From: a gamma proteobacterium HTCC2207
GTDB taxonomy: Bacteria > Pseudomonadota > Gammaproteobacteria > Pseudomonadales > Porticoccaceae
DNA: 35,459 bases
Assembly (NCBI GenBank): GCA_905182275.1
Contig: CAJJAU010000076.1
Span: 1 to 35,459, forward strand
Reading direction: 5' to 3'
Position 1 is the stretch's first letter. Every line of letters starts with the position of its first letter. Shown here piece by piece: positions 20,029 through 22,676 of the stretch. The notes beneath the pieces are model-generated. The model saw nothing but the letters and a program-made list of their open reading frames with translations, was not told the DNA's origin and did no database searches. The translations under genes and the position numbers were made by a program.

Positions 20029-20316
20029 TTAGTGCCCCCGGTGTTTTTCTTTGTGCTTAATAATTTGTCTGTCTAACTTGTCGGCCAGAGCATCTATTGC
20101 CGCATACATATCCTCATGCTCGGCTATGGCGAAAAGCTCTGCACCGCTTACATGAACTGTAGCCTCGGCCTTCTGTCTCAATTTCTCGACGGTCAGCATT
20201 ACAGTAGTGCTAGTTATTTGTTCGTAGTGCCGCTCTAGTTTTGATAATTTATTGGTAACGTATTCTCTTATTGGGTCTGTGACGTCTAAATGGTGCCCAC
20301 TGATGGTCATCTGCAT
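20029..20316 (-). CDS. hpf: Short ribosome hibernation promoting factor
   Basis: 95 residues, the short HPF form without the C-terminal dimerisation domain of long HPF. It contains the core MTISGHHLDVTDPIREYV and the basic helix ALADKLDRQIIKHKEKH. It binds the 30S decoding region and, with RMF, helps form 100S ribosomes in stationary phase. The gene has a good ribosome-binding site (GGAG about 8 bases before the ATG), overlapping the end of rpoN's downstream spacer of 12 bases. Position directly after rpoN is conserved across gammaproteobacteria. Confidence 0.95.
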   Translation of the reverse strand: MQMTISGHHLDVTDPIREYVTNKLSKLERHYEQITSTTVMLTVEKLRQKAEATVHVSGAELFAIAEHEDMYAAIDALADKLDRQIIKHKEKHRGH

Positions 20317-20328
20317 GTAATACTCCTT

Positions 20329-21864
20329 TTAGATAGTATTTTCGAATCGTTTTCTCTGGCTCGAAGACGGTATGCCCAGGCTCTCTCTATATTTGGCTAC
20401 CGTGCGGCGAGCCACCTGAATCCCTTGCTGTTCCAGTAAAGCCATTAGTTTGTTGTCACTTAATGGCTTCGAAGGCCTTTCCGCCTCAATCAGAGTTTTT
20501 AGAATAGCGCAAACTGCCGTTGATGAACACTCTCCACCAGAGGAAGTGCCAACATGACTTGAGAAAAAATACTTTAACTCAAAAATTCCTTGTGGCGTGG
20601 CTAAATATTTTGCTGTAGTTACGCGCGATATTGTTGACTCGTGTAGTTCTAATCTAGTCGCAATATCGGCCAAAACCATCGGTTTCATGCCAATGGGGCC
20701 ATCATCTAGAAACGCTTGCTGTAGCTCTACGACAGTAATAGCAACACGCATCAATGTTTCATTACGACTTTCCAGGCTACGCAAAAACCATCGCGCTTCT
20801 GCTAAATTATCTTTTAAATACTGATTTTGTTCACTATTGTCAGAGCGCTTGATTAAGCTTGAGTAGACTTCGTTTATCTTGAGGCGCGGCATGTTGCTGT
20901 CATTGAGACGGACTTGCCAGCGGCCAGCAATTTTCTCTACGTAGGCATCAGGCGCAATATATTCAGTGTTATTTTCGGCTAAGGATTCACCCGGGCGAGG
21001 ATTCAAACTTTGAATCAATTTAATGGCACTTTGTAGTTCATCTATTTCATAGTGAGTTTTCTTGGCAAGACTGTTGAGATCTATAGAGGCAATATCGGTT
21101 AAAAACTCAGAGGTGAGTCTTATAGCTTGGACGACAAAAGGAGTGTCCGTCGACAACTGATATAGCTGAATCAGAAGGCATTCGCGAACATTCCTGGCAA
21201 GTACTCCGGGAGGATCAAACTGCTGTAGTCTATGCAGTACTGCTAATAATTCATCCTCCTCTATCGGATCATCCGAGGTATTGGACTCGTGGTGAGATAT
21301 TATGTCGGCTAAATTTTCATTGATAAAACCTGAATTTTCGATTGAATCTATAAAAGCTTCAGCAATCTGTTTGTCTCGCAGAGTAAAAGGCGTTAAGTTC
21401 AATTGCCACAACAGGTGATCTTGGAGTGATTCAGTAACCTGATAGACCTGCTCCCAATTAGCCTCTCCACTAGTATTCGATGTAGGGGGGCTGGCGCTGA
21501 AATTCTCTTCCCAGTTTGCTTCAACGGCTAACTCTGTAGATTTCTCAGTCAGCCAATCATTCTCTGCTTCAATTTCGGTAATTGGTTTTTCTGTTGCGTC
21601 CTCAGCGACATTATGATTTTTATTATCATCGAGGTTTAGTCCGCCAGTCATCGTATTCTCATATTCAGAGGGAGACTTTTCAGGATCATCGCTCGACTGG
21701 CTGCCTGCCCCTTCATCGACTTCTAATAGAGGATTACTGTAAATTTGTTCAGTGATTTCTTGACTTAACTCGAGGGTAGACAACTGTAATAACTTAATCG
21801 CCTGCTGCAACTGGGGCGTCATCGTTAACTGTTGGCTAAATTTTAATTGTAAGCCTGGGCGCAT
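20329..21864 (-). CDS. rpoN: RNA polymerase sigma-54 factor
   Basis: 511 residues. Region I is the Gln/Leu-rich activator-responsive segment (QLTMTPQLQQAIKLLQLSTLEL). An acidic region II (about 50-130) follows, then the core-binding region, the HTH part (FELKYFFSSHVGTSSGGECS) and the RpoN box ARRTVAKYRE at 485-494, which reads the -24 promoter element. All hallmarks are intact. The ATG at 21864 has no strong ribosome-binding site. The 86-base gap to lptB contains a near-perfect sigma-54 promoter and an overlapping sigma-70-like one, so autoregulation is likely. Confidence 0.97.
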   Translation of the reverse strand: MRPGLQLKFSQQLTMTPQLQQAIKLLQLSTLELSQEITEQIYSNPLLEVDEGAGSQSSDDPEKSPSEYENTMTGGLNLDDNKNHNVAEDATEKPITEIEAENDWLTEKSTELAVEANWEENFSASPPTSNTSGEANWEQVYQVTESLQDHLLWQLNLTPFTLRDKQIAEAFIDSIENSGFINENLADIISHHESNTSDDPIEEDELLAVLHRLQQFDPPGVLARNVRECLLIQLYQLSTDTPFVVQAIRLTSEFLTDIASIDLNSLAKKTHYEIDELQSAIKLIQSLNPRPGESLAENNTEYIAPDAYVEKIAGRWQVRLNDSNMPRLKINEVYSSLIKRSDNSEQNQYLKDNLAEARWFLRSLESRNETLMRVAITVVELQQAFLDDGPIGMKPMVLADIATRLELHESTISRVTTAKYLATPQGIFELKYFFSSHVGTSSGGECSSTAVCAILKTLIEAERPSKPLSDNKLMALLEQQGIQVARRTVAKYRESLGIPSSSQRKRFENTI

Positions 21865-21891
21865 ATTAAATAGTTATAAGTCTAGTTGGAC

Positions 21892-21907
21892 TGCAATTTT
21901 AGTGCCA
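21892..21907 (-). promoter_or_regulatory. Sigma-54 (-24/-12) promoter upstream of rpoN
   Basis: On the minus strand the sequence is TGGCAC-TAAAA-TTGCA. This matches the sigma-54 consensus TGGCAC-N5-TTGCW at every fixed position, and the GG and GC doublets are separated by exactly 10 bases. Expected transcription start is near 21881, about 17 bases before the rpoN ATG. It reads toward rpoN. It is a pattern match in a short intergenic space, not an experimental site. Confidence 0.7.
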
Positions 21908-21925
21908 ACACTATCAGTATGGCAA
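21896..21925 (-). promoter_or_regulatory. Sigma-70-like promoter for rpoN overlapping the sigma-54 box
   Basis: Minus strand: TTGCCA (21925-21920), an 18-base spacer, then TAAAAT (21901-21896). Each hexamer matches five of six consensus bases (TTGACA, TATAAT). The -10 lies inside the sigma-54 element at 21892-21907, so binding of one holoenzyme would exclude the other. Confidence 0.55.
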
Positions 21926-21930
21926 TGCAT

Positions 21931-21954
21931 TTAATAATAATAAGATATTATTAA
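21931..21954. repeat. 9-bp AT-only inverted repeat at the lptB stop / rpoN upstream region
   Basis: TTAATAATA (21931-21939) and TATTATTAA (21946-21954) are perfect inverse copies around a 6-base loop, overlapping the lptB stop codon. It lies 24-47 bases upstream of the -24 box. A sequence TATCTTATTATTA on the minus strand is a partial match (two mismatches) to the IHF consensus, and IHF often bends DNA at this distance from sigma-54 promoters. A weak terminator stem is the other reading. Confidence 0.4.
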
Positions 21955-22676
21955 AGGGTGAAATGCTCGCCAAGATAGGTTTTTTTAACCTTTTCGTCCT
22001 TTAAAATATGCTCGGTAGTGCCTTCGGCAATAACATGGCCTTCGCCAATAATATATGCGTGTTCGCATATGTCTAGAGTTTCTCTCACGTTGTGATCAGT
22101 GATTAGAACGCCAATACCTTTATCGCGGAGGTGACGAATAATGTTTTTAATATCATTAACAGAGATAGGGTCAACCCCTGCAAAAGGCTCATCAAGTAAT
22201 ATAAATTGAGGATCAGCCGCCAGCGCGCGAGCAATCTCAACGCGCCGTCTCTCTCCTCCAGAAAGGCTCATGCCGATACTTTTCGCCAAATGAGAAATGT
22301 GGAATTCGTTTAACAATGTTGTCAGTATCTCGTTGCGCTCACGTCGAGAGAGAGCTTTTCTCGTTTCCAATATTGCTAGAATATTATCTTCAACGCTAAG
22401 TGTTCTGAAAATAGAAGGCTCTTGTGGCAAATACCCGAGCCCTCTGCGAGCGCGACCATGCATCGGCAAAGCTGTTATATCTTCACCATCAATGTAAACA
22501 TTGCCGCCGTCTTGTGCCACCAAGCCTACAATCATGTAGAAGCAGGTAGTTTTACCGGCGCCATTAGGACCTAGTAGCCCAACAATTTCCCCTTGCTTTA
22601 CTGACAGAGACACATCTTTTACGATCGGTCTTTTGGCATAAGCCTTAGCAAGATTTCGTGCCTCTAAGACGGCCAT
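21951..22676 (-). CDS. lptB: LPS export ABC transporter ATPase LptB
   Basis: 241 residues. Walker A GPNGAGKT is at 36-43, the Q-loop is YLPQEPSIF, the ABC signature LSGGERRR is followed by Walker [14 protein letters not shown], and the switch histidine is in ITDHNVRE. LptB drives LPS extraction from the inner membrane with LptF and LptG (encoded elsewhere) and passes it to LptC. The start overlaps the lptA stop by one base (TAATG). Confidence 0.97.

Follow-up and report, generated by a model that had tools for sequence, protein, structure and literature searches.

What is a sigma-54 promoter box doing directly upstream of the gene that encodes sigma-54? The question is posed by rpoN in the window—the whole stretch of 35,459 bp that was analyzed here—in which a sequence-only reading had placed a -24/-12 box overlapping a sigma-70 promoter and had proposed two modes for this arrangement, activated self-transcription and self-repression. 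As a precedent it invoked Pseudomonas putida, in which rpoN regulates itself negatively. The host genome is a Porticoccaceae MAG that is 91% complete and presumably "SAR92-like," and Porticoccaceae MAGs are the majority among its named close relatives. We are highly confident that the sigma-54 site at rpoN is real and selected. Comparison of upstream sequences within the genus and across the order points to autogenous repression of rpoN by promoter occlusion as the best single mechanism, a reading that we hold to be probable and well short of certain.

The rpoN locus and its overlapping promoter elements

The locus comprises the following features, all on the minus strand.

20329-21864, minus strand: rpoN, encoding sigma-54 (511 aa), matching NCBIfam NF004595 and TIGR02395 above cut-off
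21865-21950, minus strand: lptB-rpoN gap of 86 bp, containing both promoter elements
21907-21892, minus strand: sigma-54 -24/-12 box TGGCACTAAAATTGCA, a consensus match, with the -24 element at 21907-21902 and the -12 element TTGC at 21896-21893
21925-21920, minus strand: sigma-70 -35 hexamer TTGCCA, from promoter prediction and genus conservation
21901-21896, minus strand: sigma-70 -10 hexamer TAAAAT, within the sigma-54 box, from promoter prediction and genus conservation
21951-22676, minus strand: lptB, the upstream neighbor of rpoN in the same direction, matching TIGR04406 above cut-off

The gap measures 86 bp because the lptB stop codon starts at 21951 and the rpoN ATG finishes at 21864. 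Family profiles give the gene order lptC-lptA-lptB-rpoN-hpf-ptsN-rapZ, each over a cut-off except PtsN, which is below its own, and the predicted RpoN has the RpoN box ARRTVAKYRES.

Both elements that had been read in this gap were found there. TGGCAC-N5-TTGCA, with its GG-N10-GC spacing, has a single mismatch-free occurrence in the 35,459 bp, at 21892-21907 of the minus strand; the six further matches in the window have 2 mismatches each and do not exceed chance, seven having been found in all against 11.8 expected. Within the gap itself, an 11-letter match would arise by chance with a probability of ~2e-5 (~71 places, one strand, equal base frequencies). The sigma-70 promoter TTGCCA-18-TAAAAT (21925 to 21896) has 10 of the 12 consensus letters, and its -10 lies inside the box, being composed of the box spacer and the first T of the TTGC. 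A longer sigma-54 consensus, TGGCACG-N4-TTGCW, has G at its seventh position; the window box has T there instead, and that T is the first base of the -10. Sigma-70 promoters throughout this report are matrix predictions, and TTGCCA-18-TAAAAT is among six promoter-like sites in 21700-22200, where 1.5 are expected. Another of 10/12 letters, TAGACA-16-TATTAT, lies inside lptB (22075-22048). Since a search of 21700-22200, the gap included, gave no terminator-like site and other promoter-like sites lie inside lptB, transcriptional read-through into rpoN is possible.

In the mechanism that we propose, sigma-70 polymerase would transcribe rpoN from TTGCCA-18-TAAAAT, with a predicted start near 21889, and sigma-54 holoenzyme, in an inactive closed complex, would occupy the -24/-12 box that overlaps this promoter. 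Without an activator there, the bound holoenzyme would cover the -10 and exclude sigma-70 polymerase. Rising sigma-54 would then mean less rpoN transcription, and sigma-54 would act as an autogenous repressor whose operator is written in promoter letters. In the window organism, the binding of sigma-54, its occlusion of the promoter, and the direction of the feedback are all inferred.

Conservation and loss of the box within the genus

The genus set consists of 38 rpoN upstream regions, drawn from 34 of 35 same-genus genomes (G012 was without an rpoN match), two further regions, and two named MAGs included on their placement among same-genus rows in the RpoN tree. The sigma-54 box is kept in 32 of the 38 rows at a threshold of 9/11 that was set post hoc, after results were seen (11/11 in 14 rows, 10 in 17, and 9 in one). 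These 32 boxes begin 42-46 bp before the ATG and are forward in every case. An anchored count, made with no score selection, likewise finds GG and GC in place in 32/38, with AG but no GC in four rows and no anchor in two. The invariance of GG and GC among rows with a box is by construction, because those letters and the score were the criteria for choosing the rows; the TAA of the box spacer plays no part in the score and is invariant in all 31 distinct box-bearing sequences. The TTG of the -35 is present in 32/32 box-bearing rows, 18 bp from the -10 in 28 and 17 bp in four, and the -10 reads TAAAAT (20 rows), TAAACT (10), TAAGAT (1), or TAATAT (1). The sigma-54 consensus requires neither a -35 nor a TAA spacer, and in the sigma-54 box of glutamine synthetase in the same genus the spacer is variable (GGCAA, GACAA, GACTA, AAGAA, AGAAA). 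Flanking columns of the genus alignment are mostly at 35-65%, apart from one other conserved island, ATTGCCA, which is the -35, and two exceptions: a T directly before the box (31/31) and a T seven bases before the -35 TTG (25/31).

We read this pattern as two overlapping promoters under selection in the genus. Comparison of the predicted elements shows that both exist and are conserved, and the overlap therefore withstood the check that the sequence-only reading had set for it, conservation among close relatives. A TGCCA/TGGCA dyad, considered as the site of another regulator, was dropped, 16 of the 31 distinct rows reading CGGCA. One relative, with 5% contamination, has a second rpoN match (G006:C38:30524-31810; 77% identity, residues 82-510), which is either a duplicate rpoN or a contig of foreign origin.

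The six genus rows in which the box is absent (L029, L030, L158, L159, L031, and L032) are of two kinds. The first four read CAGCACTAA, the GC of the -12 being gone, and retain TTGCTT-18-TAACAT or TTGATA-18-TAAAAT with the 18-bp spacing; L031 and L032, from the 1.4-Mb genomes G010 and G005, have an rpoN gap without anything recognizable from the genus promoter. We count one or two losses, because the RpoN tree places the six rows on two branches and the best tree needs two changes, yet a single clade is not rejected (p-AU 0.07). The ARRTV of the RpoN box is kept in the RpoN of all six (for L031 and L032 in the full genes, L299 and L300), and a glutamine-synthetase sigma-54 box with a score of 10 or 11 is kept in each of the four box-less genomes, of six, that were checkable (G005, G008, G010, and G014; 1.2-1.4 Mb). 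The sigma-54 system therefore appears to persist while its site at rpoN is lost. By the same comparison, the predicted sigma-70 letters can outlast the sigma-54 letters, and where the -35 and -10 remain after box loss, this fits a sigma-70 promoter that would work without the box.

Box placement across Pseudomonadales

Rows from the rest of the order were drawn among the matches listed, ranked by similarity to the window RpoN and mostly one per genus. Among the 83 such rows outside the genus (250 bp upstream, score at least 9), 39 have a forward box, against 2.65 in shuffles, and 14 a reversed one. For counts by family, each of 38 families is represented by its first row alone. Among the matches listed, these counts give forward boxes in 16/38 against a shuffle mean of 0.96 (largest 5 in 200 trials), reversed boxes in 6/38 against 1.17 (largest 4), and no box on either strand at a score of at least 9 in 14/38. 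Named loci were grouped from record titles, six of 80 being left out for short upstream DNA. In those from other Pseudomonadales or unplaced, forward boxes are found in 26/49 against 27/490 upstream windows and reversed boxes in 5/49 against 8/490. Rows from Enterobacterales, Vibrio, Alteromonas, Colwellia, and similar groups have a forward or reversed box in 0/17, which says little because the forward background of 10/170 predicts about one.

The place of the box is best described by its register, defined as the box start relative to the start of the predicted -10. The register is -6 in the window genus. In f21, where the box is as in named Pseudomonas rows (AGGCATATAATTTGCT), it is -5, top-ranked in five of eight rows, and in the remaining three a tied reversed match is listed first. 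Marinobacter-like rows (f20) have +6 or +7 in 6/8, as in L107 and L150, where the box lies directly past TTGTCT-17-TAAACT. Two values are seen in f24 (-34 in 3/7, -49 or -50 in 4/7), and Cellvibrio-like rows (f16) scatter apart from -47 in 3/9. Three families of one row each (f9, f13, and f32) have -34, the -12 TTGC doubling as a -35, a register partly produced by the matrix itself. The box of f41 is reversed in 8/8 rows, five of them from one genus, at -45 in seven and -44 in one, and directly precedes a TTGC-containing -35 followed by TAAACT or TACACT; four named Halieaceae loci, which possibly overlap with the f41 genomes, have the same reversed arrangement. The register is thus common to all f41 rows and most f20 and f21 rows, and differs between families. 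Proximity to the best predicted sigma-70 promoter, among the matches listed, is seen in 56/71 rows against 27.2 when the box is kept and its flanks are shuffled (largest 34 in 60 shuffles), and as the family majority in 16/24 against 5.85 (largest 10). This box-kept shuffle replaced a first null (53/71 against 19.4, among the matches listed) that was confounded because TTGC, part of the box, is itself scored as a -35. The whole-row counts of register and proximity are biased upward, because 20 of the rows were added from families in which boxes had already been observed.

Could the box have arisen merely as a side effect of the sigma-70 promoter, or serve another regulator? TTGC does resemble part of a -35, and an A/T-rich spacer resembles a -10. 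However, GG and GC lie outside any sigma-70 hexamer and are nonetheless kept in most of the genus. The enrichment over shuffles (one row per family, among the matches listed) and over upstream windows also stands against this explanation, as does ChIP-seq binding of RpoN upstream of rpoN in P. aeruginosa, as given in the relevant passage of PMC8855297. Shuffles, upstream windows, and placement nulls together reject a chance origin of the boxes, and we find an explanation by chance or by another factor hardly credible.

Activation or repression of rpoN

An alternative of more substance is activated self-transcription, in which the box serves rpoN as a normal sigma-54 promoter, an enhancer-binding protein providing positive feedback atop basal sigma-70 expression. 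The forward orientation and narrow range of distances from the ATG in the genus would match the look of an activated promoter. The enrichment of rpoN among sigma-54-promoter genes of gamma-proteobacteria (PMC12316311) and the positive autoregulation reported for Stenotrophomonas maltophilia (PMC8229486), in the passages concerned, point the same way. Against this stand the activators and their sites. A PF00158 profile search of the window genome, 91% complete, gave six stretches, three of them weak. One is NtrC, which has GSFTGA and adjoins an NtrB-like kinase, two belong to one NtrC-like regulator without GxFTGA, and six-frame translation of the six loci finds GxFTGA only in NtrC. The site of NtrC, GCACC-N5-GGTGC with 0-1 mismatch, is present no more than 300 bp ahead of the glutamine-synthetase box in 23/23 loci (23 of 24, L271 at a contig end being left out). 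Within 600 bp of rpoN, an NtrC-like site with up to 2 mismatches is found in 0/29 genus genomes, against 80/580 shuffled controls (the scan covered 29 of 38 rows of the genus, without L006 and eight others), and the window itself, from 20296 to 22503, yielded no match even when 3 mismatches were allowed. From 0/29 at rpoN against 23/23 at glutamine synthetase, activation of rpoN by NtrC from its usual site appears unlikely. The reversed boxes of other families, moreover, cannot be the promoter of rpoN on their predicted orientation, although they can block sigma-70 polymerase. We therefore regard activated self-transcription as unlikely.

It might also be that both modes operate, with repression while sigma-54 holoenzyme is idle and activation when an activator is active, for example a flagellar one in relatives. 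The forward orientation maintained in the genus is in keeping with this, as are further GSFTGA regulators in relatives G025 and G031, beside genes that we call flagellum-like from their translations. An unseen activator is indeed possible because the window genome is 91% complete and close relatives carry further GxFTGA regulators. However, these further regulators and FlhA were not found in that genome (G000, at 91% completeness), and its box is nevertheless perfect, so we consider a combination of both modes quite unlikely. Of the two modes of the sequence-only reading, self-repression is thus the better half, because of the lack of NtrC sites at rpoN, NtrC being the sole GxFTGA activator found in the 91%-complete genome, and the other registers and reversed boxes; activated self-transcription is not supported here. 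The main reason for favoring an operator over a promoter is that register and orientation vary between families. Against repression are the positive autoregulation in S. maltophilia (PMC8229486, in the passages available), the 14 of 38 families that are box-less among the matches listed, and the scatter of registers in f16.

Several observations on these regulators and their targets were made in passing. The window genome contains an NtrC-family response regulator (L263:1099-2367) without the GxFTGA loop, whose AAA domain match is broken up and which is probably not a sigma-54 activator, judging from its sequence. Eleven of 35 same-genus genomes, among them that of the window, have a GlnII-type glutamine synthetase (L268:1466-2476, which is G000:C43; L269-L279); its best family is NF041605, below cut-off, and in the window genome it adjoins ntrBC. 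Most remaining genus genomes have weak matches only, to type I glutamine synthetase, which in G008 and G014 lies <3 kb from an NtrC-like gene. Both kinds of glutamine synthetase are preceded by a sigma-54 box and NtrC sites.

That rpoN can regulate itself is not new. Kohler 1994 is cited for it in P. putida by PMC8855297, which also claims agreement of its ChIP-seq data for RpoN upstream of rpoN with two other data sets. The P. putida precedent thus stands as to self-regulation; the sign, negative in the background account, is absent from that passage. The likeness to Pseudomonas is that sigma-54 binds its own gene there, as predicted for the window, and that rows show AGGCATATAA[TC]TTGCT with a -10-like TATAA[TC] inside, as in the window; the differences are that P. 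aeruginosa and P. putida belong to another family and that the passage is without site, register, or sign. Sigma-54 holoenzyme of E. coli represses overlapping sigma-70 promoters (argT, chaC, mdfA, and patA), lowering product in vitro by 10-60%, and in the part of PMC4551910 that describes this, the sigma-54 site overlaps the sigma-70 polymerase footprint and the C at -12 is kept, as in the arrangement proposed here. However, the E. coli targets are other genes, whereas the target in the window is rpoN itself, with a site conserved through the genus; the word stem "autoregul" has 0 occurrences in PMC4551910. The relevant passage of PMC4591121 agrees on repression for intergenic sigma-54 sites, those inside genes being without effect, and occlusion of a nearby sigma-70 promoter by sigma-54 has been discussed, in a passage on it, for meningococcal pilE. 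A 2025 matrix study found rpoN enriched among sigma-54-promoter genes in gamma-proteobacteria and other classes and read this as autoregulation (PMC12316311), in a section that does not take up where the sites lie with respect to sigma-70 promoters, nor their orientation, losses, or sign. In rhizobia, negative autoregulation is cited for rpoN1 of Rhizobium etli and rpoN of R. leguminosarum in passages of PMC3916325 and PMC3538637. There sigma-54 is reported to lower its own expression, as is proposed here, but these are alpha-proteobacteria and the passages give no mechanism or site. Expression of rpoN also depends on RpoN in S. maltophilia, with the opposite sign, in another order, and in passages of PMC8229486 without a site. 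In the open-access literature searched, subscription papers being outside its scope, the parts of the sources covered held no description of a sigma-70 overlap at rpoN, of registers specific to families, or of a reversed box.

Taken over the order, the comparison suggests that across much of Pseudomonadales sigma-54 may be a dedicated repressor of its own gene, a wider reading to which we give an even chance. The operator would be kept at the sigma-70 promoter of rpoN while its place would not: over the -10 in the window genus and Pseudomonas, just past it in Marinobacter, at the -35 or slightly ahead of it in several families, and ahead of the -35 in reversed orientation in Halieaceae. Some small-genome lineages that retain the sigma-54 system would have dropped the operator. 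Self-regulation of rpoN is recognized in Pseudomonas and rhizobia, and an account of how it works was met nowhere in the literature searched. If the boxes are operators, a simple occlusion switch would explain it for a large order, and a sigma factor that normally awaits an activator would be selected as a repressor. Repression and activation come cleanly apart in the family whose boxes are reversed, and rows that lost the box are natural mutants.

A final observation concerns Pseudomonas-like rows. In five of them (L124, L131, L148, L177, and L229), CTAGGCAAA lies ~20 bp before the AGGCATATAA[TC]TTGCT box; it is poor as a -35 and is 19 bp from TATAAT.
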